Of a DNA stretch of 64,000 nucleotides, positions 8,879-36,066 are shown in pieces. The notes under the pieces are model-generated. The model saw nothing but the letters and a program-made list of their open reading frames with translations. It made no database searches and had not been told where the DNA came from. Location: assembly GCF_000469155.1 (NCBI RefSeq), contig NZ_AWXE01000004.1:186001-250000 (forward strand). Direction: 5' to 3'. A program made the position numbers and the translations under genes. This stretch comes from Candidatus Micropelagos thuwalensis (GTDB lineage Bacteria > Pseudomonadota > Alphaproteobacteria > RS24). Numbering within the stretch: the stretch's first letter is position 1; the number at the start of each line of letters is the position of its first letter.

Positions 8879-8904
8879 ATTACTTTAACCAAATCCCTAA
8901 AAGT

Positions 8905-9270
8905 CTAATCTTGACGCTGAACATCGAGTTTATCAACCCACTCGGCCATTTCCTTGCCCAAAGAATTCACCCAAGCCAGTCGAGATTGAGCCATAATCTC
9001 AATTTTTTCAAGTCGTATTAAATTATCTTTGAGCCGGGTGATTTGATCTTCCGTTAAATTTACTTCACCGCCGCTAATAGCAGCTATTTGTAGAGGAAGG
9101 TGTTCATCCAAAACTTTTCCAAGTTCCTTAATAGAATTTTCAATTTCAGAATGGTCTATCTGGGAGGTTTCAGAAGATGAGGGAGATGAATTTGAAACAG
9201 AGATAAGTATACCTTCGAGGCTACGCTCGAAAGCTGATAAAAAATCGTCAAAATGAATACGCGGGTTCAT
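8905..9270 (-). CDS. flgN: FlgN-like flagellar export chaperone
   Basis: This is a 121-residue, mostly helical protein with no signal peptide or membrane span. FlgN chaperones the hook-filament junction proteins FlgK and FlgL. The call rests mainly on position, 13 bp after flgM as in many flgA-flgM-flgN operons, and on the size and helical heptads in the C-terminal half (EDQITRLKDNLIRLEKIEIM). FlgN sequences are weakly conserved, so another small flagellar protein remains possible. Confidence 0.55.
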   Translation of the reverse strand: MNPRIHFDDFLSAFERSLEGILISVSNSSPSSSETSQIDHSEIENSIKELGKVLDEHLPLQIAAISGGEVNLTEDQITRLKDNLIRLEKIEIMAQSRLAWVNSLGKEMAEWVDKLDVQRQD

Positions 9271-9283
9271 AAGCTAGGTATAC

Positions 9284-9577
9284 CTAACTTTTTAACTCCA
9301 CGTAAGCATCTAATAATGCATCGGAAACACGATCTATATCGATAGGGTATTCACCCTTAGATATAGCAGTTTTAATCCGTTCGACAGCCTCAAAGTCAAC
9401 TGGAGGCTCTTTAGATAGGTTCGAAAGATCTGAAACCTTAACAGAAGCCTCTTGACCAGGGGAGGTTACACGTCCCGAAGCAGAAGTTTTCGCTTCTGTT
9501 TCTGTTGACGCTTTCTGAACCACGGATTTATTTTGTGGATCGATGCGACTGACCAAGTTTTTAACTGAATCAACCAT
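9284..9577 (-). CDS. flgM: Anti-sigma-28 factor FlgM
   Basis: FlgM binds FliA (sigma-28) and holds it inactive until the hook is finished and FlgM is exported. The 97-residue protein has the low-complexity, disordered first half and the C-terminal sigma-binding helices (DFEAVERIKTAISKGEYPID, then VSDALLDAYVEL) typical of FlgM. It sits just after flgA. The cognate sigma factor is encoded in the same window (16980-17696), so both halves of the checkpoint are local. Confidence 0.88.
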   Translation of the reverse strand: MVDSVKNLVSRIDPQNKSVVQKASTETEAKTSASGRVTSPGQEASVKVSDLSNLSKEPPVDFEAVERIKTAISKGEYPIDIDRVSDALLDAYVELKS

Positions 9578-9606
9578 TGTTAATCTCCTACACTAACACT
9601 AACGAC

Positions 9607-10371
9607 TTACATGAAGTTCATTTTAGCATTTATTTTGATTTTTTTTCTATTAATCACAAATCCTTCAATAACTGTGTCGCTATTGAGGTTTTTGACCTTA
9701 ATAATATCTCCAACGTGCCCGTTTTCCAGGGCAATTCCTACTGTTGTCACATTTATCCCGGATACCGTATTTTCAATATCAACCTGTTGTTCTGCCTGAA
9801 TCGTCCAATTTGGCACGAGATGGCGAGATAATAGCACTGTTCCCTCCCGTAAAGGTGTTTTGGTCTTTCTACCAAGAACATGTGACAGATCAAAATATCC
9901 ACCAAAACCACTATAATGCGGTAATACGACAGATTTAAGATTTTCTTCAGTCAGTAATTCACCCGCCGATACGCTGTGAGCGAGAACAATACGCGCAGCT
10001 TGGGCATCTTCATTCTCATTATTTAAATTGAGAGTCGTCGTAGAGCCCGTGACACGGGTACGGATATAAGCGGATCTCTCAACCGGATACGCGCAAGAAA
10101 CCCTAATTGTTTTAAAACTTTCATTTGTTGCTATTGTTTCAAGGTTATCAGCACAGGTAAAAAAGAACTTATCATCGCGCACCATTGGTGAGCCCTGAAT
10201 CTGATGTGTTTTCAGATATTCATTTACAGCTTCTTTGATTTCAACCCCAATCACATCACGGATAATCTCATCATCTTGAGCATTATTAAGCGCCCCCTGC
10301 CCCTCAGATGGGACAAAGAAAAGCGTAAGTCCGAAAACCAGATTAATTGCCGAAAAAGAAAATTTCATCAT
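9607..10371 (-). CDS. flgA: P-ring assembly chaperone FlgA
   Basis: FlgA is a periplasmic chaperone for P-ring (FlgI) assembly. An N-terminal signal peptide ends near residue 26. The C-terminal SAF/FlgA domain shows LGRKTKTPLREGTVLLSRHL and VPNWTIQAEQQVDI, then GDIIKVKNLNSDTVIEGFV, the classical C-terminal box. The length of 254 residues is normal. Its start overlaps the end of the LysM gene by 29 bp, so translation is coupled. Confidence 0.9.
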   Translation of the reverse strand: MMKFSFSAINLVFGLTLFFVPSEGQGALNNAQDDEIIRDVIGVEIKEAVNEYLKTHQIQGSPMVRDDKFFFTCADNLETIATNESFKTIRVSCAYPVERSAYIRTRVTGSTTTLNLNNENEDAQAARIVLAHSVSAGELLTEENLKSVVLPHYSGFGGYFDLSHVLGRKTKTPLREGTVLLSRHLVPNWTIQAEQQVDIENTVSGINVTTVGIALENGHVGDIIKVKNLNSDTVIEGFVINRKKIKINAKMNFM

Positions 10372-10816
10372 TTACCTTTCCAGACGAAATGCTAGTGGAT
10401 GAGGTTTTTTGCCCCAAAATCATCGATTGAATCTCATTTACAGAAGGCAAACGCAGTTTCCTTCCCGCAAACAGATAGTTTGGGTTTTGCCTAACAAAAG
10501 CTTTTGGGTTGGCTTTAACAATCGCAAGAGACAAAAACTCTCTGCTTAGTCCGCTATTTCGGTAATATTTGTTCATAATTTTAGACAAAGTCTCATCAGG
10601 CCGAACCAAATGTTCGACAGAATGATTATAATCCTGAACAAAGGCATTATCGCGGTCATTTCCCGAACTACCAATGCTTTGAACACCGTTATATTCAAGT
10701 ACAATTAAAGCCTCGGCAGCTGATTGAGCTGGCGTTAACACTAAAAAAACGCCTAAACTCAAGCTTAGAAGTGTTTTTAAAAATCTTTTAGATGGCCTGC
10801 TTACAATCATCTTCAT
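10343..10816 (-). CDS. Secreted LysM-like protein in the flgT-flgA operon
   Basis: This 157-residue protein has a signal peptide (about residues 1-34, cleavage near AQSAAEA). A LysM-like, FimV-type segment follows: VRPDETLSKIMNKYY, then AIVKANPKAFVRQNPNYLF and AGRKLRLPS. Such domains bind peptidoglycan in the periplasm. It overlaps flgT by an ATGA junction and flgA by 29 bp. Since FlgT and FlgP form periplasmic rings in Vibrio, a peptidoglycan anchor for those rings is a reasonable but unproven role. Confidence 0.7.
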   Translation of the reverse strand: MKMIVSRPSKRFLKTLLSLSLGVFLVLTPAQSAAEALIVLEYNGVQSIGSSGNDRDNAFVQDYNHSVEHLVRPDETLSKIMNKYYRNSGLSREFLSLAIVKANPKAFVRQNPNYLFAGRKLRLPSVNEIQSMILGQKTSSTSISSGKVNDEIFFFGN

Positions 10817-11943
10817 TGACCTAACTCCATAAAGCGAACCGTTTTTCCATCAAAATCCGCATTATTCTTACGTTTATCAAGTGTTTCTAAAAATACGCTG
10901 TTCATCTGCGCTTCAACAACCCGAAACACCGTCCATGAGGCATCATTTCCGGCAACCACAGCAAGGTGGTTTTTTAAGACACCCTTGGCAACACCAAAAT
11001 CGACACGCAACCGATTATCCTGATCAAGGGTAAGTTTTCCTGTAACTGGACGACAGGAAAACTCCTGACCGAAATTCATTACAAAATGTTTGAAATCCTC
11101 AGAAAACTGAGCCAACAGATTATCTCTGGACGGTGCTGTCAGCGTGTTCACCGTATCAAGATAAAACTCGAACCCCATTCGATGCGTCACCGGAAAGGTC
11201 TCCATTGCCACCATCACACCAAGATGGTCGTAAACATCAACATGCACAATAATATCGAGTTGTTTGCTTTTAGCTACATAACCCATATTATTTTTGCGCT
11301 GGCGAATCTCAATCCTTGGCGCAAGGGCAAAATCACCGGAGGCAACCGCGCTTGACGTCATAATAGTGTTATAATCCATCGCACTGCCGACACGTTGCGC
11401 CTTAACAGGATCATAAGTCATATACATTTGATTGACCGGCTCAAGATTTTCTGACTTGTCGATTGCATCGAAAAGAATACTGACCATTTTTTTTGCTATT
11501 CCGGCTGCCCATGAAGGCGCGTTGCGCGCCATATTAATTTGCGGGCTATAAACATGTAGACGGCTTTTCATGGAAGAACTGCAGGAGTCATCAATATGGC
11601 CTGTCACGGCACGAATTTTGACCTCAAAATGATGCTCGGTCTGTTTTTCTTCCAGTAAACTATAATCCAGAATACTGTCTCCGGGGCGAACCAAAACCTG
11701 TTCGGTTAAGTTAGTCATCTCGTCTATAAAGCTATAACCATCTACCCGGGCTTCCCCTTGAAGGGCGGCAAGATAGAGCGCATCTTCCAAAGCCATGCGC
11801 CGTAATTCATCAGACGTGTATTGATCAGACAAAGCGGCACGACCGGTTACCTCAACAATATTCACACCAGCTTGCGCCGGCCCAAAAAAGGAGGAAAGAG
11901 ACAAGACAAAAATAAAGACACATACTTTCAATATGTTACGCAT
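10813..11943 (-). CDS. flgT: Flagellar H-ring protein FlgT
   Basis: FlgT is the periplasmic H-ring protein described in sodium-driven polar flagella of Vibrio; it stabilises the basal body and helps stator recruitment. This 376-residue product has a signal peptide (about 1-25), then VEVTGRAALSDQYTSDELRR and MALEDALYLAALQGEARVDG, the FlgT N-terminal pattern. A middle domain with RIEIRQRKNNMGYV and a C-terminal beta domain follow. Two cysteines (DDSCSSS and FSCRPV) could form a disulphide. It lies between flgP and the LysM gene. I am fairly sure of the family, but alphaproteobacterial FlgT is less documented. Confidence 0.78.
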   Translation of the reverse strand: MRNILKVCVFIFVLSLSSFFGPAQAGVNIVEVTGRAALSDQYTSDELRRMALEDALYLAALQGEARVDGYSFIDEMTNLTEQVLVRPGDSILDYSLLEEKQTEHHFEVKIRAVTGHIDDSCSSSMKSRLHVYSPQINMARNAPSWAAGIAKKMVSILFDAIDKSENLEPVNQMYMTYDPVKAQRVGSAMDYNTIMTSSAVASGDFALAPRIEIRQRKNNMGYVAKSKQLDIIVHVDVYDHLGVMVAMETFPVTHRMGFEFYLDTVNTLTAPSRDNLLAQFSEDFKHFVMNFGQEFSCRPVTGKLTLDQDNRLRVDFGVAKGVLKNHLAVVAGNDASWTVFRVVEAQMNSVFLETLDKRKNNADFDGKTVRFMELGQ

Positions 11944-11984
11944 TACCTCTCGCCCTTCCTAATTTATTAAAGTTTCTGATATAC

Positions 11985-12497
11985 TCAGGTATATCTGTCT
12001 GCAGCCTGGATTAAGCGGGCAATCACATCTCTATCTATTTCAAGAACAATCTCATAAGTATCCGACCCTGTCGGGTTAATACGAACTGTTCGGGCACCGC
12101 GAATAATGCCGGTCACAACACCTCTAAATGTGTCGTTCTGTACCATTAGATCCACAACGGTGGTGTTACTGTCAACTTGCAAACCGTGGATTTGTTCGGC
12201 CAACTCGCGGATGGCTGCCATTCGGGCGGCGCGAATAGCCATAAGACGGCGCTGGGCATCGGATTTACCGGGCTGTGTTGAAACAACCGCATATCCAACC
12301 GCTGTCAGCGTCGGAATGGTTTGGACGTTACCGCCGGAAACCATAGAATAAGATTTAAGCTCCTGCTGAAAAGCCGGGTTATCATCTGGGCTAATAGCAT
12401 TTGAGCTGGTATCAACCACCTGAAGCTCATATCCGCAGGCTGCAACTAGGCAGGAAACGGCGATTGCCGTAAAAAACTTTGTAAAACGTCGTGTCAT
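11985..12497 (-). CDS. flgP: Flagellar lipoprotein FlgP (LPP20 family)
   Basis: FlgP is an outer-membrane lipoprotein that forms part of the outer rings around the L-ring in Vibrio and Campylobacter. The 170-residue product has a signal peptide with lipobox LVAAC (Cys about residue 21). Its LPP20-like domain includes GYAVVSTQPGKSDAQRRLMA, then IRAARMAAIRELAEQIHG and the C-terminal ARTVRINPTGSDTYEIVLEI. It is first in the leftward operon that continues with flgT, and a sigma-54 type promoter lies 39 bp upstream. Confidence 0.8.
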   Translation of the reverse strand: MTRRFTKFFTAIAVSCLVAACGYELQVVDTSSNAISPDDNPAFQQELKSYSMVSGGNVQTIPTLTAVGYAVVSTQPGKSDAQRRLMAIRAARMAAIRELAEQIHGLQVDSNTTVVDLMVQNDTFRGVVTGIIRGARTVRINPTGSDTYEIVLEIDRDVIARLIQAADRYT

Positions 12498-12535
12498 AAT
12501 ACGTACTCCGTGACAAAAATGACTGCTGAAGCAGA

Positions 12536-12552
12536 TGCATCTTTCATGCCAA
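12536..12552 (-). promoter_or_regulatory. Sigma-54-like promoter of the flgP-flgT-flgA-flgM operon
   Basis: The minus strand reads TTGGCATGAAAGATGCA. The -24 element is good, and the -12 element has the essential GC with ATGCA in place of TTGCA. It sits 39 bp before the flgP start and 99 bp from the diverging flhA promoter; the DNA between could bind a shared enhancer-binding activator. Confidence 0.6.
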
Positions 12553-12651
12553 GGCTATCCGATGCCCATACAAATTATAAATTCACCTGATTTTAGGTCT
12601 TCTCAGGGCTTAAGGAGCAACCTCTTCTGAAATTTTATGTGTATACACGAA

Positions 12652-12668
12652 TTGGCATGCATTTTGCC
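12652..12668 (+). promoter_or_regulatory. Sigma-54 promoter of flhA-flhF-flhG-fliA
   Basis: The plus strand reads TTGGCATGCATTTTGCC, a good -24/-12 match with correct spacing. It lies about 150 bp before the chosen flhA start. A 10-bp palindrome GTGTATACAC stands just upstream (12640-12649). This promoter would place the export gate, FlhF/FlhG and FliA under sigma-54 control. Confidence 0.7.
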
Positions 12669-12816
12669 TTAATCCCTTGTGCATAGGCGCGGAAAAGTTG
12701 AATTTTAGTCCAAAAAACCATCTTTTCCGCAGTTTATGCAAGTTAAAGACCAAATGGGCAGTTCTTGTGAGACTGTCGGGTTTTTGACTAAAAATGGGAT
12801 TAGAAAGGGAAATGTC

Positions 12817-14931
12817 ATGGAAATGACGCTCAATTTTTTGAGAAACCAGAATTCAAAGATGATGCTGACCAGCCTTGTCATGCCAATCGGTATTTTGGCG
12901 CTTATTACTATGATGGTTCTGCCTGTTCCTGTTTTTATGCTCGATATTTTCTTTGTCGGCAATATTCTGGTTTCATTACTGATTTTGATGGTTGCTATCA
13001 ATACTTATAGACCTCTTGATTTTTCGAGTTTCCCCTCCCTCTTGCTTATTGCCACTATTTTGCGCCTTGGTCTTAATGTTGCGTCAACACGCGTTGTTTT
13101 GAACGAAGGCCATACAGGTACAGATGCTGCCGGGCGTGTCATTGAAGCATTTGGTCAATTTGTTATTTCTGGCAATTATGCTGTCGGTATTTTCGTCTTT
13201 ATCATCTTGGTAATTATCAATCTTGTTGTCATCACGCGCGGTGCAGGCCGTGTTTCAGAAGTTTCCGCCAGATTTACACTAGATGCAATGCCCGGCAAAC
13301 AAATGGCGATTGATGCGGATTTAAATGCTGGTGTGCTGTCAAATGAAGAAGCCAAACTCCGCCGCGAAGAAATTGCCAGTGAAGCTGACTTTTACGGGGC
13401 CATGGATGGTGCTTCTAAATTTGTAAAGGGAGACGCAGTCGCAGGCATTCTTATTTTGGCGATTAATATTATCGGTGGCTTGACTATTGGTATGGCCCAA
13501 CATAATCTTGGCATTGAAGAAGCCGCCAGCAATTACATTCTCTTATCCATCGGCGACGGGCTGGTTGCACAGATACCTTCCCTGCTGTTGGCAATTTCTA
13601 CCGCGATTATTGTGACCCGTGTCTCAACGACCCAGGACATGGCAAAACATATAGGCAATCAAATCAGCATTTCGCGCGCATGGATACCTGTTGCCGGGGT
13701 TCTGATGCTTATCGGCTTTGTGCCGGGCATGCCGAATTTCTTATTTCTCGGTGCTGCTTTACTGGCTGGTGCCGCAGGGTTTTTCATATTCCGCCGGGAA
13801 CAAAATGAACCGACACAAGAGTCCATTGCTGAAGCCGAGGCAGAAGCAGAAGCTCTTGCAGAAAAGAAACCTGACCAAATTGAACTAGATGATGTTACGG
13901 ATAATTCAGCCGTTTCCGTCCAACTGGGTTATGGGCTTGTCGAAATGGTAGATGATGAGGCTGGCGGACCATTGATAAACCGCATCACAAGCATCAGGAA
14001 ACAGGTATCTCGCACACTTGGATTTGTTGTGCCGCCCGTGCGTATTCGCGATGATCTGACACTCGACGCCAATCAATATCGTATTCGCATAGGGCATACG
14101 ATTGTTGGCGACGATAAGGTCTATCCTGATCGTCTTCTGGCTATTCCAGGAGAGAACTCAAAAATTAAGTTGGAAGGCATTGACGCGAAAGACCCAACTT
14201 TTGGAATGGATGCCATATGGATTAAAGCTACCGACAAAACCAAAGCTGAGAGTGACAGCTATGTTGTTGTCGCCCCAGAGTCCGTCTTGGCCACTCATTT
14301 AAATAAATTGCTGAATAAATTTGCCGGAGACCTAATCGGACAAGACGATGTTCAAATGCTTCTCGATAATCTTGCAAATTCGTCACCTAATCTCGTGCAA
14401 TCCGCAGTTCCAAAACTGGTGCCATTGCACCACCTAACTGGAATCTTACGCGAATTACTGACAGAAAATGTGCCGATAAGTGATCTCAAGCGGATACTTG
14501 AGGAGCTTGCCAATTTGTCTGACAAAAATCTCAGTATCACAGACTCTGCAGAAATTTTACGCCCAGCATTAAGCGGCCTGCTTATTCAACAAGTCGCGCC
14601 GTTAAATTCGACTTTACCAGTGATTACGCTTGATGCAGAACTAGAACAAATGTTGATTACAACTTATCGCCAGCAAAATGAAAGCGATTTGATTATTGAT
14701 ACAGGCCTCGCCCAGCAAATCCTTGGCGAAATTAATACAGTAAATGAGAAGCTGTCTTCCGAGGGACGTCAGCCCGTCATTGTTGTTTCACCTTTCATCC
14801 GTCGTGCCTTCTCAAAACTGGTTCGGCAAAATGTTGAAGATGTTCATGTGCTGTCCTTCAAAGAATTACCGGATAGCCGCAAAATTGAAGTGGTTGCCTC
14901 AATTGGCAACGCCAACCAAGAAACTGAATAG
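12817..14931 (+). CDS. flhA: Flagellar export gate protein FlhA
   Basis: FlhA is the large inner-membrane subunit of the flagellar type III export gate; it binds chaperone-substrate complexes with its cytoplasmic domain. The N-terminal half has about eight membrane spans and the FHIPEP-type signature (RVSEVSARFTLDAMPGKQMA, then IDADLNAG, EEAKLRREEIASEADFYGAM, DGASKFVKGDA). The C-terminal half is the soluble substrate-docking domain. I choose ATG 12817 (MEMTLNFLR) because GAAAGGGA stands six bases ahead; an in-frame ATG at 12736 would add 27 unlikely residues. It is the first gene of the flhA-flhF-flhG-fliA operon. Confidence 0.95.
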   Translation: MEMTLNFLRNQNSKMMLTSLVMPIGILALITMMVLPVPVFMLDIFFVGNILVSLLILMVAINTYRPLDFSSFPSLLLIATILRLGLNVASTRVVLNEGHTGTDAAGRVIEAFGQFVISGNYAVGIFVFIILVIINLVVITRGAGRVSEVSARFTLDAMPGKQMAIDADLNAGVLSNEEAKLRREEIASEADFYGAMDGASKFVKGDAVAGILILAINIIGGLTIGMAQHNLGIEEAASNYILLSIGDGLVAQIPSLLLAISTAIIVTRVSTTQDMAKHIGNQISISRAWIPVAGVLMLIGFVPGMPNFLFLGAALLAGAAGFFIFRREQNEPTQESIAEAEAEAEALAEKKPDQIELDDVTDNSAVSVQLGYGLVEMVDDEAGGPLINRITSIRKQVSRTLGFVVPPVRIRDDLTLDANQYRIRIGHTIVGDDKVYPDRLLAIPGENSKIKLEGIDAKDPTFGMDAIWIKATDKTKAESDSYVVVAPESVLATHLNKLLNKFAGDLIGQDDVQMLLDNLANSSPNLVQSAVPKLVPLHHLTGILRELLTENVPISDLKRILEELANLSDKNLSITDSAEILRPALSGLLIQQVAPLNSTLPVITLDAELEQMLITTYRQQNESDLIIDTGLAQQILGEINTVNEKLSSEGRQPVIVVSPFIRRAFSKLVRQNVEDVHVLSFKELPDSRKIEVVASIGNANQETE

Positions 14932-14943
14932 AGGAGTTAAATC

Positions 14944-16152
14944 ATGCCGACTTTAACCGTTAGTGCCGACGATTCGGCGACAGCAATGGAAGAGATTGTC
15001 CAAAAGTTGGGTGAGAATTCTTACATTCTGTCTACAGAAAAAACCGGTGGGAAAATTCACATTAAAGCCACGAATGACATTAAACCTGAAATTGGTCGTC
15101 CGGCACTGAAGCGTAAAAAGGCTTTTCAAGATGCCATGACACGTGCCGACAGTAATCTGGCTCCCGTTAATGGAACTCAGAACGATATGGTTCTAGAGCC
15201 AAATATTGTAGCCATGTCTGGTGATGCGGTGACAAAAAACATCACATCAAAAGCCGCACAGCAGAGAAGTAGCGAGAAAAATGGTAATGGCGATTACTCT
15301 CCCCGCATTGGCGAGCTGGAGAAGCTTGAAACCAGATTGAACAAAATCACACATATGCTGGATGGCATGATACTGACACGCCGAGAGGAGGCTGAGCTTG
15401 GCATCGGCAGAAATTCGTATATTGCCATGCAACAAGCTGGATTTTCATCAGAACTTGTCTCATCCCTTCGCGATACATTGAACGCACGCGACGAGAAACT
15501 TGGTTGCAAATCATTCCTTCGCGCTCTATCGGAAAGACTGATTGTCACCGATCCTGTAAGCCTCATGGAACAAAAACATATTTTTGTCGTCGGCCCCGCC
15601 GGAAGCGGAAAATCATCCCTCACCGCTAAATTGGCTGTAAAACGCCGTGAAATGAGCATGGATGCAACTGTACGCCTGATTGAAATTGATCAACCCGGCG
15701 TCACCCCTTGTGACGGCCTGAAATATCACGGGCGTCTTCTCAATATGCAAATTAATAAAACAACACCGGAAAGCGCTCCCGAGGAGTATATCGACAGCAC
15801 CGCCCCGACAATCACAGATATCTGCATTAATCCTCATGAGACTCCTGCGGTGCTTGACACGTTAGAAAAGAAACTCGGCTCTGAAAACATGACAGTTTTA
15901 ATTGCCCTACCCGGTGGCGCAAGTGCGCGTCTTATCAGACAACAATGCGCGCTTTATCAATCTTTCAATCCCGTTATTGCACTCACACGTCTTGATGAAT
16001 GTGAAACGGGTCCGGAGGAGTTTTCTGTTTTAGCTGAAATGGGCATGAAGATTGGCGTCTTCACAGGCACACGCGGCTTGGTCGACTCAATAATATTTGC
16101 AAGTATGCCCGCATTGGCGCAATACTTGGAAGATTATTGTTCTGAAGAGTAA
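14944..16152 (+). CDS. flhF: FlhF-type SRP-like GTPase with altered switch motifs
   Basis: FlhF is an SRP-family GTPase that sets the position and number of polar flagella. The N-terminal B domain, a linker and a helical segment precede the G domain. The P-loop GPAGSGKSSLTAKLA (from about residue 217) is intact, and TRLDE in the C-terminal part fits the TKLD motif. The G3 motif, normally DTAGR, is replaced by ALPGGA (about residues 321-326), losing the aspartate. The second SRP motif (DTYRIGA) reads DQPGVTP. GTP turnover may therefore be weak or absent. At 402 residues it is near normal length and starts 12 bp after flhA. Confidence 0.88.
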   Translation: MPTLTVSADDSATAMEEIVQKLGENSYILSTEKTGGKIHIKATNDIKPEIGRPALKRKKAFQDAMTRADSNLAPVNGTQNDMVLEPNIVAMSGDAVTKNITSKAAQQRSSEKNGNGDYSPRIGELEKLETRLNKITHMLDGMILTRREEAELGIGRNSYIAMQQAGFSSELVSSLRDTLNARDEKLGCKSFLRALSERLIVTDPVSLMEQKHIFVVGPAGSGKSSLTAKLAVKRREMSMDATVRLIEIDQPGVTPCDGLKYHGRLLNMQINKTTPESAPEEYIDSTAPTITDICINPHETPAVLDTLEKKLGSENMTVLIALPGGASARLIRQQCALYQSFNPVIALTRLDECETGPEEFSVLAEMGMKIGVFTGTRGLVDSIIFASMPALAQYLEDYCSEE

Positions 16153-16185
16153 ACAGAGTAACTAAATAGTAAGTGAAGAGTTTTC

Positions 16186-16965
16186 ATGGCATATTCTGTA
16201 GCAGTAACAAGTGGCAAAGGAGGTGTTGGCAAAACCAGTATCGCCATTAACCTCGGCATGACCCTTTCTCGAGAGGGTCAGCGTGTTTGCTTACTCGACA
16301 CGGATTTTGGTCTAGCAAACGCCCATATCCTGCTGGGCGTGAATCCACAAAAAACAATCAGCGATTTATTAAATAATCGCGCCACCATGTCTGAATTGCC
16401 GTGCAATGGCCCCGCAGGATTAAAGCTGGTCGCCGGTGGGTCTGGTCTGACAGATTTGTTGAAGATTGACGAAAATATCCGTAATCAAATCATCCGTTCC
16501 ACTGATGCGTTGTGTGATAATCTAGATGTGTTGATTGTTGATGTGCCTGCCGGCGCGACTGACAGCGCAATTGATATTATCGCTGCCGCTGACAGAGTGC
16601 TGGTCGTCCTAGTCGGGGAACCGACAAGTTTCACTGATGCCTATACGCTTATCAAAGCTTGTTCACTGGAAAAAAACACATATCATTTCTCAGTCGTCGT
16701 AAACATGGCCAATAACGCCAACCATGCGAAAGATACCTTTGACCGCTTTAAAAATATTACAGATCGGTTTTTGGATATTGACCTGAGGTTCGCCGGGTAT
16801 TTGCCCTTATCCAGCGCATTGAGGGACTCGATTGTTAAACGTCGTCCAATTATGTCCGACAATGGAAAAACGGCAGAGACACAATCGTTTAAGAAGTTGG
16901 CGCTTACTATCTCCCAGACACCCAAAAACGAAACGCCCGGATTACGTTTCCTAGGTTTGAAGTAA
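16186..16965 (+). CDS. flhG: FlhG/FleN-type MinD-like ATPase
   Basis: FlhG (FleN, YlxH) is a MinD-family ATPase that limits flagellar number and pairs with FlhF. The deviant Walker A motif SGKGGVGKTSIAINLG starts at residue 9. DTDFGLANAHILLG (switch I) and LIVDVPAGATDSAID (switch II) follow. It starts almost directly with the Walker A strand, so the N-terminal activator segment with the DQAxxLR motif, which stimulates FlhF in other bacteria, is missing. The 259-residue length matches the core fold. It lies between flhF and fliA. Confidence 0.92.
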   Translation: MAYSVAVTSGKGGVGKTSIAINLGMTLSREGQRVCLLDTDFGLANAHILLGVNPQKTISDLLNNRATMSELPCNGPAGLKLVAGGSGLTDLLKIDENIRNQIIRSTDALCDNLDVLIVDVPAGATDSAIDIIAAADRVLVVLVGEPTSFTDAYTLIKACSLEKNTYHFSVVVNMANNANHAKDTFDRFKNITDRFLDIDLRFAGYLPLSSALRDSIVKRRPIMSDNGKTAETQSFKKLALTISQTPKNETPGLRFLGLK

Positions 16966-16979
16966 ATAAATGGATTTCT

Positions 16980-17696
16980 ATGTCAGTTAAATATCAAACT
17001 AAGCCCGAAGTTGAAGAGCTGATAACTGATAATTTACGGCTGGTGCAGTCTATTGCCTGGCATCTCCATGCACGGGTCAGCAAAGTCATCGAAATAGACG
17101 ACCTGGTTCAAATTGGCTATTACGGATTGGTTACCGCAGCCCAAAAATACACCCCGCAAGAAGGGGTTAATTTTTCCAATTATGCCAGTCTGCGCATTCG
17201 TGGTGCGATGGTTGACCACCTCAGAAAAAATTCAAATCTTTGTCGCACCACTATTAAAATGCAACAAAGATTTAATCACGCTGAACAAAAACTCATCAAG
17301 CTTCACGGGCGCCAACCAGAGCAAGCAGAGATTGCAGATGAAATGGCAATCTCACTTTCTGAATTGCAGGAATGGCGTAAGAATTTCGCCGCTAATCATC
17401 ATGAGTCCATGGATCAGGTTTATGATGATTTTTCTATAATTTTTGCATCGAACACCAACGACCCCGAGGAAGAGTTACAAAATAAAGACCTTAAAAAACT
17501 TCTTATTGAAGCACTGAAAAAACTCCCAGAAAAAATGGCACTGGTGATACAACTTTATTATGTTGAAGAACTCAATGTATATGAAATCGCCGAAGTTCTG
17601 GAAGTAACAATTGGGCGTGTATCTCAAATCAAGTCCGAGGCAATCAAAAAACTCCGCACCCATATTGCGGAAGCGCAATCCCCAGGCTTTGAATAA
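16980..17696 (+). CDS. fliA: Flagellar sigma factor FliA (sigma-28)
   Basis: FliA directs RNA polymerase to late flagellar promoters. Region 2 is clear (DNLRLVQSIAWHLHARVSKV, then IDDLVQIGYYGLVTAAQKYT and NYASLRIRGAMVDHLRK), region 3 follows, and region 4 ends with YYVEELNVYEIAEVLEVTIG and RVSQIKSEAIKKLR as a helix-turn-helix. The 238-residue length is typical. It is held by FlgM, encoded at 9284-9577. It starts 14 bp after flhG in the same operon, so its own expression is placed under the sigma-54 promoter ahead of flhA. Confidence 0.93.
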   Translation: MSVKYQTKPEVEELITDNLRLVQSIAWHLHARVSKVIEIDDLVQIGYYGLVTAAQKYTPQEGVNFSNYASLRIRGAMVDHLRKNSNLCRTTIKMQQRFNHAEQKLIKLHGRQPEQAEIADEMAISLSELQEWRKNFAANHHESMDQVYDDFSIIFASNTNDPEEELQNKDLKKLLIEALKKLPEKMALVIQLYYVEELNVYEIAEVLEVTIGRVSQIKSEAIKKLRTHIAEAQSPGFE

Positions 17697-17712
17697 ATTT
17701 TGAGGGGCCTGG

Positions 17713-18120
17713 ATGAGCGCAGACCTTCAACAGATTAGAACGATCCACATGACTGTTCAAACAGCCGAAAAGCGTTTGCTCGGTTATAAGGCTGAGGCAG
17801 AATTAAATTTGAGTTGCACATTGGTTAATATTGCGCGTGGTAATTGCTCAGTGAGCATTTATCCAATCGCAGATTTTGCAACCCCGTCCGGCAAGCTTGA
17901 AATAGAAATCCGTCGGCCTGTTATGAATTTAGCTTTCAATCTCCAACAAACCTCGTTTGACAGGCTGTGCGAAGCTTTATCCTATCACCAGCCGCGACCT
18001 GTCGACTTGATGATTTTACTCGATAACGCATTGACTGTGACAATTGACGGTGACCTGTCAATTCAAGAAAAAGAAATTCATCAGATTAGAGATTTAAGCT
18101 GGCGTATTCCGCTGTGTTAA
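17713..18120 (+). CDS. Unknown protein at the end of the flhA-fliA operon
   Basis: I do not recognise this 135-residue protein. It is soluble, without signal peptide or membrane span, and appears mixed alpha/beta with hydrophobic strands (LMILLDNALTVTIDGDLS). A GAGGGGCCT ribosome site and a 16-bp gap after fliA show it is co-transcribed. Position suggests a flagellar regulator or assembly factor. The beta-rich middle and the size leave room for a PilZ-like fold, but the RxxxR and DxSxxG motifs are absent, so I do not assign it. Confidence 0.7.
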   Translation: MSADLQQIRTIHMTVQTAEKRLLGYKAEAELNLSCTLVNIARGNCSVSIYPIADFATPSGKLEIEIRRPVMNLAFNLQQTSFDRLCEALSYHQPRPVDLMILLDNALTVTIDGDLSIQEKEIHQIRDLSWRIPLC

Positions 18121-18139
18121 ACCTATTTTTCAAAAATTA

Positions 18140-18928
18140 TTAGTCAATTAGACGTCGGATCATATCAACATCAGCTTGCATAATTCGTGATGATCCTGAA
18201 AATGCCTGCTGGGCGCGTAAAAGCCGAGCAATCTCATTTGTTGTATCTACATTTGCGGCTTCAAGAGCTCCTGACTGGATAGAACCGGTTCCTGTTGCAC
18301 TGTCTTGCGGCGCAGACACAACCGGTTGGCCTGACTCAGGCGTCACAATATAATTAGTATTGCCGTCATTACGCAGCTTTGTCTCATCTTTGAAAGTTGA
18401 AAGACCAACTGTAGCAACTTTTACGGAGACACCCTGACCATAATCCACTTGGATTGATCCATTAGCAGCGACATTAATAGCTGAAAGGCGCCTTATATTT
18501 TCTTCACTATCAACAACAGTAAATGGAATCTTAACTTCATTGTTCTCTTCATCAAGATATTTAAAGCCATCCATCGTAACCAACTCGCCTTCATTAGTTA
18601 AATTTATAGAACCGTTACGTGTGTATTTAATTTCATCCGGGTTATTTGGGTTTTTAATAGCAAAAAACCCTTCACCATTAATCGCCAAATCAAGAGCTGC
18701 ATTAGTCATAATAAATGAGCCTTGCTGATGAGCGCGTCTTGGTTCAAGCCTTTGGACACCATTGCCGAGCTGCAAATTTGATGTCCGATTTTTCTCTGTA
18801 GCGTAAATATCTTCAAAAATAGTATCACTGCGCTTAAAGGAGACGGTTCCCGCATTAGCAATATTATTCGAGATTACCGCAATATCTTGGAGCGCTGCGT
18901 TCATTCCTGATTTGTATATAGCAACCAT
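18140..18928 (-). CDS. Orphan FlgE/F/G-family rod or hook protein
   Basis: The 262-residue product has the axial-protein N-terminal box (VISNNIANAGTVSFKRSDTI), a central AINGEGFFAI followed by YTRNGSINLTNEGELV, and a C-terminal box (SGALEAANVDTTNEIARLLR). It is a flagellar axial protein by family, but genes assigned to flgB, flgC, flgE, flgF and flgG already lie in the window, so this is an extra member. It stands alone, facing the fliA operon tail to tail, with its own sigma-54 type promoter. It may be the true FlgF or a lineage-specific rod extension; phylogeny would decide. Confidence 0.85.
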   Translation of the reverse strand: MVAIYKSGMNAALQDIAVISNNIANAGTVSFKRSDTIFEDIYATEKNRTSNLQLGNGVQRLEPRRAHQQGSFIMTNAALDLAINGEGFFAIKNPNNPDEIKYTRNGSINLTNEGELVTMDGFKYLDEENNEVKIPFTVVDSEENIRRLSAINVAANGSIQVDYGQGVSVKVATVGLSTFKDETKLRNDGNTNYIVTPESGQPVVSAPQDSATGTGSIQSGALEAANVDTTNEIARLLRAQQAFSGSSRIMQADVDMIRRLID

Positions 18929-18957
18929 GTTTCTGTCCTATTAATTCAGCTAAAAAG

Positions 18958-18974
18958 TTCAAATTTCGTGCCAA
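18958..18974 (-). promoter_or_regulatory. Sigma-54-like promoter of the orphan rod/hook gene
   Basis: The minus strand reads TTGGCACGAAATTTGAA. The -24 element is perfect; the -12 element lacks the usual GC (TTGAA for TTGCA), so activity is less certain. It lies 30 bp before the start at 18928. The same element-to-start distance at the other flagellar sites supports it. Confidence 0.5.
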
Positions 18975-19063
18975 AGTGATTTTTCTGGAGAATTTAATCT
19001 TTGTTGATTTCTTTATTCATTTTTGCTTTAAAAAAAGCTGAGATTTCGTCTTTAGGTGTAACT

Positions 19064-19450
19064 ATGTCAAACAGTTCTCGTGCTTTAGTCCCCATTGAGA
19101 AGAAGTTACCGTCCTTACGTCGTAAGAAGCGTAAGAAGGGTGATGCCTTTGCACTTGTCGAAAAGGACGTTTTTCTCCGCGACAGAGCAATGGTTCGCCG
19201 CTATTTACCTGATATTCTTGGAAAAGTTCTTGCACGAGTATGGATTGATGTGGACTTTCATGATTTATTTTCTGAAGACCCGCAAAGGACACTTGAGGAT
19301 AATGGCGTCCATCTTCCTGATAATATGTATCTAGAGTTCCAAAAACCTGACTCTGATCGCCCCCGTATTGTCGTTTACGAGCAAAAACCGAATTCAAAAT
19401 TTAAAGTTCGGGTGTTTTATTTACAGCTCGTTATGATGGCCGGCAGGTGA
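19064..19450 (+). CDS. Small protein with NHLP/nitrile-hydratase-like segment
   Basis: The protein is 128 residues from ATG 19064 (MSNSSRALVP); an upstream in-frame ATG at 19001 seems less likely. The first 30 residues are very basic (LRRKKRKKGD). The second half (RVWIDVDFHDLFSEDPQRTL, then EDNGVHLPDNMYLEF) resembles the NHLP leader and nitrile-hydratase alpha N-terminal pattern, in which a D-F is followed by DP..L...G..LP. No RiPP-modifying enzyme lies nearby. Its stop overlaps the start of the Sel1-repeat gene (TGATG). The family link is my pattern reading and needs a profile search. Confidence 0.55.
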   Translation: MSNSSRALVPIEKKLPSLRRKKRKKGDAFALVEKDVFLRDRAMVRRYLPDILGKVLARVWIDVDFHDLFSEDPQRTLEDNGVHLPDNMYLEFQKPDSDRPRIVVYEQKPNSKFKVRVFYLQLVMMAGR

Positions 19451-20085
19451 TGCGCGCCCTTTTTTTAGGACTTTTACTAGCATGTACAGTTAATTTTCCT
19501 GTATTGAGCGACAGTCATAAAAGCGTGCTTCCACATAAAGTTATTGACCCTGACAAGGCCTACCGCGTCGCCGTCGAAGCCGTCAGAGATAAAAAATACA
19601 CCATTGCAGTTGAGCATTTTGAAATGCTAGCTGAACAATCCCAATATGACGCCCAGTATAATCTTGCCCTTTTATTGAAGCAGGGGCTTGGAATTCCGCA
19701 AAATTACCCCGAAGCCCTGAAATGGACATGGCTAGCTCATCTTGGTGGTGTTAAGAAAGCTCAAGGGCTCGCAGATATGCTATTAGATCTTGTGCCTGAA
19801 AAGCGACAAGACAAAACCCGCGATCAGGTCTCAGACATTTTAACTGAACGTATCGAGTCAGGTGATTTAAACGCTCTGACACAATTTGCCAGATTTCACT
19901 TAGATGTCCTTGTCGAGCCAGATTATGAAACCGCTTATAGTTGGTATTCTGTCGCCGCCGCCTTCAAAATGCCTGGCGGTATTAGAGGGCGTGAAGACGT
20001 CATTGACGAGGTTGACCCCGAAAAACTGGTCGAGTTGCAGGACGAAGCCACCGAAATTTTTAAAAATCTTACTTCTCCTGAGTAA
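19450..20085 (+). CDS. Secreted Sel1/TPR-repeat protein
   Basis: The 211-residue protein starts at ATG 19450 within the TGATG junction with the preceding gene; a GTG start at 19447 would add one residue. The signal peptide runs to about residue 22. Sel1-like repeats follow: AQYNLALLLKQGLGIPQNYP then EALKWTWLAHLGG, and later DYETAYSWYSVAAAF. Sel1 proteins act as adaptors in the envelope. With the preceding gene it forms a two-gene unit next to the flagellar cluster. The exact partner is unknown. Confidence 0.75.
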   Translation: MRALFLGLLLACTVNFPVLSDSHKSVLPHKVIDPDKAYRVAVEAVRDKKYTIAVEHFEMLAEQSQYDAQYNLALLLKQGLGIPQNYPEALKWTWLAHLGGVKKAQGLADMLLDLVPEKRQDKTRDQVSDILTERIESGDLNALTQFARFHLDVLVEPDYETAYSWYSVAAAFKMPGGIRGREDVIDEVDPEKLVELQDEATEIFKNLTSPE

Positions 20086-28298: not shown

Positions 28299-29462
28299 TT
28301 ACAGCTCCTCTTTAGCGGTAGCAAAGGCCCAGTCGAGCCATTGTGTGAGAATTTCAAGGTCAGCAGTTTCAACAGTTGCACCACCCCAAATACGCAATCC
28401 CGGGGGAGCGTCACGATAGGCACCAATGTCATAGGCTGCGCCTTCGGCATCGAGTAACGCCGCAATACCCTTTGCGAAAGCGGCCTGTGCGTCCTCATCC
28501 ATCGCAATGACGTCAGAATCCACAATTTTCAGGCAGATAGATGTGTTGGAGCGATAAGCTTCCTCAGCACAGAGGAAATCAACCCAATCCGTCAGGGCGA
28601 CCCAGTCGGACAGAACAGCAAGATTATCCGCTGAGCGTTGCAACAAAGTCGGCAGGCCACCAATATCTTCAGCCCATTTTAACGCATCGACATAATCCTC
28701 AACCGCCAGCATGGACGGCGTGTTAATCGTCTCACCTTTAAAAATACCCTCAATCAGCTTACCGCCTTTTGTGAGACGGAAGATTTTTGGCAGAGGCCAT
28801 GGCGGTGTATAGCTTTCGAGCCGCTCCACAGCGCGCGGCGAGAGAATAAGCATACCGTGAGCCGCTTCACTTCCCATGACTTTTTGCCAGCTAAAGGTGG
28901 TGACATCGAGTTTTTCCCATGGCAAATCCATGGCAAAAGCAGCAGAAGTTGCGTCACACAGAGTTAGACCGGTGCGGTCATCGGCAATCCAATCACCATT
29001 TGGCACTTTAACACCGCTTGTCGTGCCGTTCCATGTGAAGGCAACATCGCGGCTAAAATCCACCTCTGAGAGATCAGGCAAATCACCATAAGCGGCTTCC
29101 ATCACGCGAATATCGTCAAGCTTCAACTGCTTGACAGCATCGGTAATCCAGCCCTTACCGAAACTTTCCCAACCCAAAATATCCAATCCGCGTTCGCCAA
29201 GAAGTGACCACATTGCCATTTCATATGCGCCCGTATCCGAGGCGGGCACGATACCGATATGCCAGCCTTCCGGTACATTTAAAACATCACGGGTGCGGGT
29301 GATGGCTTCCAACAGACGAGATTTGCCCGGCTTGGAGCGATGCGATCTTCCGAGAACAGCGTTATTAAGATGGGTAAGGTCGTAACCCGGACGCTTAGCG
29401 CAGGGACCCGATGAAAAATCGGGATTTGCCGGAGACGTCTCCGGTTTGATCAAGATAGTCAT
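28299..29462 (-). CDS. serC: Phosphoserine aminotransferase SerC
   Basis: SerC transfers an amino group to 3-phosphohydroxypyruvate, giving phosphoserine. The 387-residue protein is the alphaproteobacterial type with [17 protein letters not shown] near the start, [17 protein letters not shown], and the PLP lysine in [20 protein letters not shown] (about residue 196). It is the first gene of the serC-serA operon and sits directly behind the serC RNA leader and a promoter, which together explain its regulation. Confidence 0.95.
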
Positions 29463-29516
29463 GTCTCTACCCTTTCAGATAGTTGCCCTTCGGTGGGGAA
29501 GGGTGTCCCACGCGGA
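29463..29516 (-). ncRNA. serC-type RNA leader (cis-regulatory)
   Basis: The minus-strand leader just before the serC ATG folds into two hairpins. The first is CCCTTC with GAAGGG (loop CCCACC); the second is CTATC with GGTAG (loop TGAAAG) and covers the likely ribosome site AAAGGGTAG. The arrangement and position match the serC RNA motif described upstream of serC in alphaproteobacteria. A ligand is not known. The leader begins about where the promoter at 29517-29545 would start transcription. Confidence 0.65.
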
Positions 29517-31062: not shown

Positions 31063-31908
31063 TTAAGGGTCTTGTGACTTTTCCAGCACAGGATGTGCAT
31101 GGTTCAAAGGCTTGTTATGCCCTGTTCCCAAAGAAGAGTTGGCTGTCTCAATCGCTCTGCGAACATAGCCCAGTCCGCGCTCAACTGCAGCTACAAGTGC
31201 CAGACCCTGACCCAAGCCTGTCGCAATAGAGGAGGCAAGCGTACAGCCCGTGCCATGCGTGTTCTTGCTATCGAAGCGTGGGTTTTCAAATACCGTAAAA
31301 CCCGATTGCTCGGCGAGTAAATCCGTCACCACTGCCTCATTGCCGTGACCGCCTTTAATCAGCGCGGCTTGTGCACCATCAGTCATTAAACGATCAGCAG
31401 CATGTTTCATATCATCCAGCGTCTCGACACCACGATTGGTCAGAATCTCCGCCTCAGGCATATTGGGTGTAACCAGAGCAGCTTGTGGCAACATAAGACT
31501 TTGCATGGCACTCACCGCCTGCTCGGTTAACAGACGATCCCCAGAGCTTGCCACCATGACCGGGTCAATCACGGCAGGGTTGAGGAAATCATCCAGCAAA
31601 GGGGCAACCGCCTCTATCACTTCAGTGCGCGCCAGCATGCCTGTTTTTACCGCATCTGCACCAAGGTCAGACAAAACCGCCATCATCTGCGCCGCCACGA
31701 AATGGGGAGGAACATCCATAATATCTTTAACGCCGTGTGTGTTCTGAACAGTCAGCGCCGTCACAGCCGTCATGGCAAATCCGCCCAAAGTTGTCACTGT
31801 TTTAATATCTGCTTGCAAGCCCGCGCCGCCACCAGAGTCTGAACCGGCGACAATCAAAATTCTTCCGTTCGGGTAGAGTGCTGTCGGGGACGTATCGCCA
31901 GCGCTCAC
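31063..31908 (-). CDS. thiD: Hydroxymethylpyrimidine (phosphate) kinase ThiD
   Basis: ThiD phosphorylates HMP and HMP-phosphate for thiamine synthesis. The ribokinase-like fold starts with [20 protein letters not shown] and continues through [34 protein letters not shown] and the C-terminal anion-hole motif [16 protein letters not shown] with the catalytic Asp/Cys region. The 281-residue length is slightly long for ThiD. It overlaps glmM by 4 bp. No other thiamine genes or thi-box leader lie next to it, so salvage is as likely as synthesis. Confidence 0.92.
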
Positions 31909-33251
31909 GCGGCAACTTCCTCAATCGTGGTGACAATCTCACCAACAAGCTGGCGGACAAGCGCTTCGTCATCCCCCTCGCCCATTACGCGGATAACCGG
32001 CTCAGTTCCGGATGGGCGTACCAGCAAGCGCCCATGATTACCCAGCTTCGCCTCGGCATCACGAATTGCCGCCTGAACTCGGTCATGATCAAGCGGCGCA
32101 CCCGAGTTAAAGCGCACATTTTCCAGTAATTGTGGCAGAGGCTCAAACATATTACCAATCTTGCTCATTGGCTGACCGGTTTGCTGCATTACCGCCAGAA
32201 CTTGTAGGGCAGCGATCAGGCCATCACCTGTTGTAGAATAATCACTCATAATCATGTGGCCGGATTGTTCACCGCCAAGATTGAAACCAAGTGCCCGCAT
32301 GCGCTCCACAACATAACGATCACCAACATTCGTGCGTATGAGATCCAAATCCTGGCTTTGCAGATAGCGTTCCAACCCAAGATTGGACATAACAGTCGCC
32401 ACAAGCCCGGGCGCGGTAAGACGCTCATGATGTTTCCAATCCGTCGCAATCAGTCCCATAATCTGATCACCGTCAACTATTTTGCCGTTTTCGTCGCAAA
32501 TAATCACACGGTCCGCATCCCCGTCGAGCGAAATGCCAATATCGGCTTTTTCCTGTAAAACGGTTTCCCGCAAAAGGGCTGTATCAGTAGAGCCGCAACC
32601 TTTATTGATATTCACTCCATCTGGGTCGACGCCAATCGAGATAATATCTGCACCAAGTTCCCAAAGCGCTGTCGGCGCAACCTTATAAGCCGCCCCATGC
32701 GCACAATCGACAACAATTTTCACGCCACCAAGATTACCCTGCCGTGGGAATGTCCGCTTTGCAAATTCGATATAACGCGCCTGAGCGTCGTCGATTCTCT
32801 TAGCACGCCCCAGCCCATCAGCAGACGCAACATGCTCTCCAACGCCGTCATCCATAAAGCCTTCAATTTCAGCTTCAAGTTCATCGGACAGCTTATATCC
32901 GTCCGGCCCGAATAGCTTAATACCGTTATCTTCAAATTTATTATGCGAGGCAGAAATCATGACCCCAACATCAGCACGCATACTGCGCGTCAGAAAGGCC
33001 ACAGCTGGTGTCGGGATAGGGCCAAACAAAAACACATCCATACCCATTGAGGTAAAACCAGCAACCAGGGCAGGCTCAATCATATAACCTGAGAGGCGCG
33101 TGTCTTTACCAATCACAACCCTGTGCCGATAGCTACCACGCCGGAAAACGCGACCAGTCGCCATACCCAGCCTGAGTGCCATTTCACCGGTCATATTACC
33201 TTTATTCACAGTGCCACGAATACCATCAGTACCAAAATATTTGCGAACCAT
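31905..33251 (-). CDS. glmM: Phosphoglucosamine mutase GlmM
   Basis: GlmM interconverts glucosamine-6-P and glucosamine-1-P for peptidoglycan and LPS precursors. I start at ATG 33251 ([15 protein letters not shown]), the family N-terminus; an in-frame start 66 bp upstream adds a non-conserved stretch. The catalytic phosphoserine loop is [19 protein letters not shown], metal binding is DGDADR ([11 protein letters not shown]), the sugar loop is GGEQSGHMI, and the phosphate site is [15 protein letters not shown]. It sits between folP and thiD, and the ftsH-folP-glmM order is widely conserved. Confidence 0.96.
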
Positions 33252-33330
33252 TGCCTGACCATAATTAAGTAAACGAATCAACTGCTTATTAGTGCCAAAC
33301 TGTTGCGCTAATATCAAGTCACGCTAAATT

Positions 33331-34146
33331 TCATTTTTTTACAAAACCTGACAGATGCCCCTTAATTTTTAGCGCATCGCTGAGTTGAGAGGGATCATGT
33401 GTGCGGATGTAGTCCACACCTTTCGCCGCCGCCCATAACTCAGCAGCCAGCGTCACCGGCGCGCTGTCTTCTACTGAACGCCCACTAAGCGCCCGCAAGA
33501 AGCTTTTGCGGGAAACCGAAACAAGTATGGGTAAGCCAAATATTTTTTTCAGTTCATCAATACGCGCCAGCATTGTGAGCGATGGCTCAGGCGTGTCACC
33601 CAAAAAAAATCCCATACCAGGGTCAATCACTATTCGGGTTTGATCAATTCCAGCTTTCATCAGTTCCGTCAGTCGCGTGTCGAAAAAACGGCAAATATGG
33701 TCAAAAATATCTCCTGCAGGCGGCGCAGTCCGCGTGGCAGCGCCGGCAGATTGAATAGCATGCATGACAACAAGTCGACAATCAGACGCCGCAAGGTCTG
33801 AATAAAGGGCTGGGTCAGCAAACCCATGAATATCATTCATCCAATCAACATTTTGTTGCAAAGCCCATCTCTGGGTTTGCGTTTGATAGCTGTCAATGCT
33901 GATGGGAATATTAAGCGCCTTTAGAGCCGGAACAATAGTGGTAAGACGATCAATTTCAGTTCGCGCTGAAACAGGGGTGCTATCTGGATGGCTGGAGGCC
34001 GGGCCAATATCTATTATTTCCGCCCCACCAGCATGCAAGGTAAGTGCTTGCTTTAATGCTTTTTCAGAGTCGAGATAAGCGCCGCCATCCGAAAAACTGT
34101 CCGTTGTGATGTTTAAAATCCCAAATAGACAGGGAATATGAGTCAT
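33331..34146 (-). CDS. folP: Dihydropteroate synthase FolP of the Sul (sulfonamide-insensitive) type
   Basis: Dihydropteroate synthase joins p-aminobenzoate to dihydropterin pyrophosphate in folate synthesis. The 271-residue protein has GILNITTDSFSDGGAY, but the usual DVGGESTRPGA loop reads DIGPASSHPDS (about residues 47-57), and DPGxGFGK reads DPGMGFFLG. NDIHGF, VVMHAIQS, SVSRKSFLRALSGR and the ending DYIRTHDPSQL follow. All of these are hallmarks, as I recall them, of the Sul1/Sul2 enzymes and not of E. coli FolP, and the length equals that of Sul2. It lies 6 bp after ftsH and before glmM, so it is the resident folP and not a mobile insert. Whether it resists sulfonamides is inference. Confidence 0.9.
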   Translation of the reverse strand: MTHIPCLFGILNITTDSFSDGGAYLDSEKALKQALTLHAGGAEIIDIGPASSHPDSTPVSARTEIDRLTTIVPALKALNIPISIDSYQTQTQRWALQQNVDWMNDIHGFADPALYSDLAASDCRLVVMHAIQSAGAATRTAPPAGDIFDHICRFFDTRLTELMKAGIDQTRIVIDPGMGFFLGDTPEPSLTMLARIDELKKIFGLPILVSVSRKSFLRALSGRSVEDSAPVTLAAELWAAAKGVDYIRTHDPSQLSDALKIKGHLSGFVKK

Positions 34147-34152
34147 CGCAAA

Positions 34153-36066
34153 TCAGGTGCTTTGCGGCTTAGCATCACCGACATTTTTGGACTTACCCAC
34201 TGAGGGGACTGCCGAAAGCGCACCGGGGCCGGAGTCGGTATCTGTTGGCTCGGGTCTATGAGGCGGGTCACCCTTCAGCAAAGCTTCAATTTCGTCACCA
34301 CTCAATGTCTCATATTCAAGGAGACCATTCGCAATAATATGCAAATCATCAATATTTTCACGAATTATGCTCTCAGCCTTCTTGTAGCCTTCATCGACAA
34401 ATTTACGAGTCTCAGAGTCAATCTTGCTCTGGGTTTCGTCGGAAGTGTTCTGTGTCCGCGTGACGGAATGACCCAGGAAAACCTCCTGCTCATTGTCACC
34501 ATATGCCAGAGGGCCCAATTCATCACTCATGCCAAATTGCGTCACCATCGCTTTCGCCATATTGGTTGCCATTTGAATATCGGATGAAGCGCCAGAAGTA
34601 ACTTTCTCATGTCCGAAAATGACCTCTTCAGCTATACGCCCGCCCATAGCGACAGCCAAATCGGCTTTCAACTTAGCGCGGGTGACGGAGAGTTGGTCGC
34701 GCTCGGGTAAACGCATGACCATACCAAGTGCCCGTCCTCTTGGAATAATAGTCGCCTTGTGAATAGGATCAGACGCTTCAAGGTTAAGTGCGACCAGCGC
34801 ATGGCCGCCCTCGTGATAGGCCGTCAGTTTTCTTTCTTCATCCGACATCACCATTGAGCGCCGTTCAGCACCCATCATAACTTTGTCCTTGGCATCTTCA
34901 AATTCAGCCATGGCAACAGTGCGCTTATTGCGTCGGGCTGCAAGTAAGGCTGCCTCATTGACCAAATTAGCGAGATCTGCGCCAGAGAAACCCGGTGTTC
35001 CACGGGCAATCGTACGGGCATCAACATCAGCCGCCAATGGTACTTTTTTCATATGAACCTGCAAAATGCGTTCGCGACCAATAATATCCGGGTTCGGCAC
35101 AACCACCTGACGGTCAAAACGACCTGGACGCAATAAAGCAGGGTCAAGCACATCCGGACGGTTCGTGGCAGCAATCAGGATAATACCTTCATTTGCCTCA
35201 AAACCATCCATTTCAACCAACAGCTGGTTTAGGGTTTGCTCACGCTCATCATTTCCGCCGCCAAGACCAGCACCTCTATGACGTCCAACTGCGTCAATCT
35301 CATCTATGAAGATAATACATGGCGCATTTGATTTAGCTTGTTCAAACATATCCCTAACTCGGCTTGCACCGACGCCGACAAACATTTCAACAAAATCAGA
35401 ACCTGAAATAGAGAAAAATGGAACATTCGCTTCACCAGCAATAGCCCGGGCCAGTAGCGTTTTACCTGTCCCTGGGGGGCCTACCAACAATGCGCCTTTC
35501 GGGATGCGTCCACCAAGCTTTTGGAACTTTCCCGGGTCTTTCAAAAATTCAACGATTTCCTGAAGATCATCTTTGGCCTCGTCAATACCGGCAACATCTT
35601 CAAAAGTAACACGACCATGCGCCTCATTGAGAAGTTTAGCTTTTGATTTGCCAAAGCCCATCGCCTTTCCACCACCGGACTGCATTTGGCGCATAAAAAA
35701 CACCCAGACACCAATCAAAAGAAGCATTGGGAACCACGACAACAAAATACCCCAAATAGTAGGCGCGTTACTTGTATCAGGCTTAGCGGTAATGCTCACG
35801 CCGCGTTCAGTAAGCCTATTAATGAGAGTCGGATCATTAGGGGGCGCATAAGAACTGAACCGTCGTCCATCGGCGAGCTTACCGGTAATAGAGTCACCAG
35901 AAATCACAACCTCTTCAACATTGCCGGCTTCAACCTCGGCAACAAATTGAGAGAAATTAATTTCACGCGCATTTGAACTTGTTGGACTTTCCTGAAAAAA
36001 GTTAAACAGGGATACCAGCAGCAGCCCCACAACGACCCAGACAATCAAATTTCTCGTATTATTCAA
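34153..36066 (-). CDS. ftsH: ATP-dependent membrane protease FtsH
   Basis: FtsH degrades misfolded membrane proteins and regulators such as sigma-32. Two N-terminal membrane spans (about residues 7-23 and 105-125) flank the periplasmic domain. The AAA module has [18 protein letters not shown] (about residue 195), Walker [12 protein letters not shown] and the SRH ([20 protein letters not shown]). The zinc protease site is [13 protein letters not shown] (HEGGH). The 637-residue length is standard, and the C-terminal tail is Pro/Ser rich. It follows tilS and precedes folP and glmM, as in many Gram-negatives. Confidence 0.97.

Follow-up and report, generated by a model that had tools for sequence, protein, structure and literature searches.

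Is a chromosomal folP gene that closely resembles the mobile sulfonamide-resistance gene sul2 an imported resistance determinant, or the resident dihydropteroate synthase (DHPS) gene of its host? This question is raised by an open reading frame at positions 33331 to 34146 (minus strand) of the window, i.e., the whole 64,000-nucleotide stretch of DNA analyzed here. Our analysis makes it highly probable that the gene encodes a resident, vertically inherited Sul-type DHPS at its native locus, which is predicted to be intrinsically insensitive to sulfa drugs.

The folP locus and its product

The open reading frame reported by the first-pass annotation, which gave no strand, is real and runs on the minus strand from an ATG at 34146 to a stop at 33331; its identity as a Sul-type DHPS of 271 residues is supported by the ORF itself, a phmmer search of the PDB, the NCBIfam model TIGR01496 and a whole-genome search. 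The gene occupies the ftsH-folP-glmM position that had been proposed for it, all three genes being on the minus strand: in the ORF list and in the locus comparison, ftsH (34153..36066) ends 6 bp upstream of folP and glmM (31905..33251) is the next gene downstream. The likely glmM start lies near 33251, the ORF caller having chosen a TTG at 33317 (ORF 31905-33317). Neither a mobile-element gene nor a GC break was seen in the neighborhood of folP. Elsewhere in the window, an Rfam serC leader (RF00517, 65.3 bits; 29462-29513, minus strand) lies immediately 5' of serC-serA. Positions 1-20000 hold an apparent flagellar cluster, with FlgF/FlgG-, FlgE-, FlhA-, FlhF- and FliA-like ORFs recognized by eye and a hook-like ORF (1928-5731) whose 1267 aa make it unusually long, and have a GC content of 39-46%, compared with 46-52% in the rest of the window.

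The host is an alphaproteobacterium with a genome of 1.96 Mb (99.4% complete), in the whole of which only folP and a 1248-aa frame match Pterin_bind. Since the latter is read as cobalamin-dependent methionine synthase (MetH), folP is the only DHPS gene of the genome and its product must therefore perform the housekeeping role; FolK is encoded elsewhere in the same genome. The protein scores above the cut-offs of both TIGR01496, the NCBIfam DHPS equivalog (254.6 bits, curated cut-off 162.6), and PF00809 (Pterin_bind; 210.2 bits, cut-off 25.5). By analogy with the Sul1-3 structures and with the resistance conferred by the folP of P. lavamentivorans (see below), it would act as the resident DHPS of a streamlined alphaproteobacterium, converting DHPPP and pABA into 7,8-dihydropteroate.

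The resemblance of this FolP to the Sul proteins is, at the level of sequence, far beyond chance. In the PDB search it scored 305.9 bits with Sul2 (E-value 2.1e-90), 279 with Sul3 (2.9e-82) and 262 with Sul1 (5.9e-77), compared with 141 bits (4.8e-40) for the best ordinary DHPS; its identity is 57% to Sul2 and 46-49% to Sul1 and Sul3. Its length equals that of Sul2, as had been remarked (the Sul2 model NF000295 is as well 271 residues long), and all the short strings highlighted previously are found in the protein, namely DIGPASSHPDS, DPGMGFFLG, NDIHGF, VVMHAIQS, SVSRKSFLRALSGR and RTHDP. Two of these segments are of particular relevance: loop 2, DIGPASSH (residues 46-53; 33988..34011, minus strand), which reads DVGGESTR in ordinary FolP, and DPGMGFFLG (residues 175-183; 33598..33624, minus strand), the Sul signature with its two-residue insertion in helix alpha6.

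Distribution and descent of Sul-type folP

The expectation that the window FolP would group with Sul1-3, apart from ordinary FolP, is borne out by protein trees. In a tree of 92 rows it falls within the Sul group (97/99), with ordinary FolPs forming a separate group (100/100), and in a denser tree it joins Sul1-3 at 96/98. When the loop 2 and alpha6 motif columns are removed, the 38 Sul-motif rows still lie on one side of a 100/100 branch; therefore, the signature itself is not the source of the grouping. In the denser tree, proteins of the window's family adjoin members of the Parvibaculum family (93/88) and Sul1 is weakly placed beside the latter (83/95), while Sul3 is nearest to proteins of Bacteroidota and Spirochaetota. 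Four DHPSs from Planctomycetota (L070, L074, L076 and L114), which branch basally in the Sul group, carry the alpha6 Phe insertion together with an ordinary-like loop 2 (GAESTHP, with Thr at position 52) and possibly represent an intermediate form.

In our reference set the window's order consists of one family (f1), with 28 genomes from six genera and genome sizes of 1.1-2.0 Mb. A Sul-type match is present in 26 of these genomes, the remaining two being 74% and 77% complete, and DPGMGFFL is found in all 23 readable genes, so Sul-type folP is fixed in the order. The ftsH-folP-glmM arrangement occurs in every f1 locus long enough to show it, and within the host's genus folP is 81-87% identical, diverging together with its neighbors. 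The nearest named relative among the matches listed, an uncultured alphaproteobacterial MAG (CALKOC010000048.1), shares 84% identity in FolP and 98% in FtsH. With a locus that is syntenic across the order, the earlier description of the gene as a chromosomal and not a mobile copy stands.

Across the class, the exact motif was found in 27 of the 386 alphaproteobacterial genomes sampled, from nine families (f1, f5, f10, f38, f52, f116, f118, f121 and f136), and nearly all of the Sul-type folP genes sampled lie in ftsH-folP-glmM. Family f10 is that of Parvibaculum, as the genomes behind loci L050 and L057 recur in it with the same coordinates. The Parvibaculum order, in which all 37 folP matches are Sul-type by score, holds only f10, and the host order holds only f1; the host thus lies outside Rhodobiaceae/Parvibaculaceae. 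Among the matches listed and the tree rows, Sul-type FolPs are also present in Myxococcota/Deltaproteobacteria, Planctomycetota, Bacteroidota and Spirochaetota. The chromosomal reservoir of Sul-type genes, previously known from two families, therefore comprises at least nine families of Alphaproteobacteria and takes in these other phyla as well. Lewinella sp. W8 (L039) and a Treponema MAG (L051), which belong to different phyla, encode closely related Sul-type DHPSs in addition to an ordinary FolP, which suggests lateral spread.

The mode of inheritance was assessed on an rpoB tree (about 1140 RpoB residues), a thin species tree insofar as it relies on a single protein marker. On this tree, a single clade (95/98) takes in 22 of the 23 Sul-type genomes; within it, f1, f10, f52 and f136 group together (99/96) and are all-Sul, as is f116, which adjoins them (86/98). 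The window's order is separate from the Parvibaculum family and close sister to it; of the two options suggested earlier, that the gene belongs to that lineage or to a close sister, the second is supported. Three genomes with ordinary folP lie unresolved inside the Sul-type clade, and the lone Sul-type genome outside it, G346 (f38), has a sister (G064) with an ordinary folP. Some transfer or loss of Sul-type folP has therefore occurred in Alphaproteobacteria, and a minimum of four changes of folP state is required. In G346 (L069/L139) the gene sits between ftsH and glmM in the reverse orientation, and its product groups with deltaproteobacterial proteins in the denser FolP tree, so this looks like an in-place lateral replacement.

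The four changes and the replacement in G346 would also be expected if Sul-type folP had entered Alphaproteobacteria several times by replacement within ftsH-folP-glmM, in which case the window copy would not be orthologous with that of Parvibaculum. We regard such a history as unlikely, considering the concentration of Sul-type genomes in a single rpoB clade, the all-Sul subclade formed by f1, f10, f52, f136 and f116, and the adjacency of f1 and f10 in the FolP tree. The data are read most simply as a single ancient origin close to the base of the clade, with a few losses or replacements afterwards. From the rpoB tree we infer that vertical descent is the main mode of inheritance, and the window folP would have been passed down within ftsH-folP-glmM from an ancestor common to Parvibaculum and several other families.

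As the Sul trait appears to have been inherited mostly in place in Alphaproteobacteria, it should be much older than sulfa drugs. The nine-family distribution and the rpoB clade further indicate that the published Rhodobiaceae folP is part of an older and broader reservoir. In this regard, transfer from Leptospiraceae into the ancestor of Rhodobiaceae has been proposed (PMC6335563). A single old origin in the rpoB clade would mean that this transfer needs a deeper date, and the presence of Sul-type FolPs in several other phyla opens the question of the donor again. A more tentative idea, which we consider possible though rather doubtful, is that the Sul-type active site became fixed in the distant past of an alphaproteobacterial clade spanning several orders and has been maintained by natural selection for a reason other than drugs, e.g., the discrimination of natural pABA analogues; if true, the Leptospiraceae-to-Rhodobiaceae transfer would have to be re-dated to a much older event.

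Active site and predicted sulfonamide insensitivity

Structures and mutants of the Sul enzymes have shown that the additional Phe of helix alpha6 admits pABA and excludes sulfonamides, that loss of this Phe abolishes resistance and that charge changes at the signature Leu, made in Sul1 and Sul3, weaken it (PMC10328974). The window FolP carries the two-residue alpha6 insertion with both residues conserved, Phe180 and Leu182 corresponding to Phe179 and Leu181 of Sul2. The pABA-site residues that had been singled out for comparison with the Sul structures are present, and the protein agrees with Sul1-3 at all the active-site residues examined: Asn12, Ser17, Phe18, Ser52, Asn104, Ile106, Asp175, Met178, Lys214, Ser215, Arg248 and His250, as well as loop 2. 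In the 21 ordinary FolPs compared, the two inserted positions are missing throughout, and position 52 is Thr in 19 and Ser in 2. An AlphaFold (AF2) model of the protein (pLDDT 92.6) is closest, among PDB entries, to the Sul2 product complex (TM 0.96-0.97, rmsd 1.0 A), with Sul chains occupying ranks 1 to 15, a match that serves as a consistency check and not as independent proof, as Sul-like sequences were included in the input alignment.

On this basis, the Phe-containing turn added where helix alpha6 begins and the altered loop 2 would be expected to let pABA bind as usual but to collide with N-substituted sulfonamides, which are bulkier; with such a clash, the enzyme should be intrinsically insensitive to sulfa drugs. 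The Sul1-3 structures make this a strong inference by analogy, as do published susceptibility data: in E. coli, the folP of P. lavamentivorans raised the sulfamethoxazole MIC from 8 to >512 mg/L, while that of R. sphaeroides had no effect (PMC6335563).

A Sul-type build is no guarantee of insensitivity, because two further f5 genomes encode Sul-type FolPs in which Gln or Leu replaces the key Phe and the remainder is kept (L279 in G160, DPGMGQFLG; L280 in G327, DPGMGLFLG), a predicted natural loss of the trait. Such relatives lend some credit to the reading of the window protein as an ordinary, sulfa-sensitive DHPS merely built on a Sul-like scaffold. The window protein, unlike these two, keeps the key Phe; with Phe180, Leu182, Met178 and loop 2 as in Sul1-3, and with resistance conferred by two homologues of the same motif in a published test (PMC6335563), we hold a sulfa-sensitive enzyme to be quite improbable. 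Intrinsic insensitivity would then be predicted for whole bacterial lineages, and metagenome counts of resistance based on folP should not score the genes of Sul-type lineages as acquired sul.

Comparison with known Sul systems

That the chromosome recently acquired a mobile sul gene, or a descendant of one, might be suggested by Sul2 being the nearest named protein and by the true sul1/sul2 copies present in many sequenced genomes among the matches listed, but this is rejected as exceedingly improbable in view of an identity to Sul2 of just 57%, the conservation of locus and gene order among all close relatives, the divergence of folP alongside its neighbors and the lack of any mobile-element gene or GC break seen nearby. 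The resistant-type folP of this host is an old chromosomal gene and no recent import.

As the first-pass annotation stated, mobile sul genes have been traced to chromosomal folP of Rhodobiaceae and Leptospiraceae, with a glmM remnant beside sul2 (PMC6335563). A candidate closer to sul2 was found in the Parvibaculum sp. MAG E19 (L050:4990-7246, JAUSLL010000003.1). Its FolP is 90-91% identical to Sul2, and the start of its intact GlmM is identical to the 81-residue sul2-linked glmM remnant (81/81). The DNA match with sul2-glmM is colinear, with 84.7% identity over 1155 bp, and runs from 11 bp before the sul2 ATG to the end of the remnant. This genome is the best of the approximately 25 to 30 Parvibaculum genomes searched, the next ones reaching 81% and 75%; P. 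lavamentivorans shares 63% nucleotide identity with sul2 according to the 2019 study (PMC6335563). Judged by these identities, it is the closest chromosomal source or relative of sul2 found, and as its folP-glmM comes close to matching the sul2-glmM segment, it is now possible to narrow down where sul2 came from and to put this to a direct test. For Sul3, the nearest relative found was in a Paludibacteraceae MAG (Bacteroidota; L054:5001-5786), whose only DHPS is 70-72% identical to Sul3, compared with 57% for the best Leptospirales protein; this copy may itself be lateral, since such a match occurs in just 2 of 198 sampled genomes of its order.

The window folP would thus belong to the chromosomal pool that gave rise to the mobilized sul2, without being mobile itself. 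It resembles the plasmid-borne Sul2 (PDB 7s2j, 7s2k) in length, pABA-site residues and predicted structure, but it lies on the chromosome between an intact ftsH and an intact glmM, and its score against the Sul2 model NF000295 (325.3 bits, cut-off 575) places it outside that named mobile protein. With Sul1 and Sul3 it shares a common signature, although these are mobile. The Leptospiraceae folP has the Sul motif as well, but lies at another locus, without a glmM neighbor (PMC6335563), and on another branch of the tree. The chromosomal folP of Rhodobiaceae and P. lavamentivorans shares with it the Sul motif insertion, the ftsH/glmM setting and the alphaproteobacterial chromosome (PMC6335563), whereas the window gene belongs to another order and its product shares approximately 49-56% identity with the FolPs of the Parvibaculum family included in the comparison.
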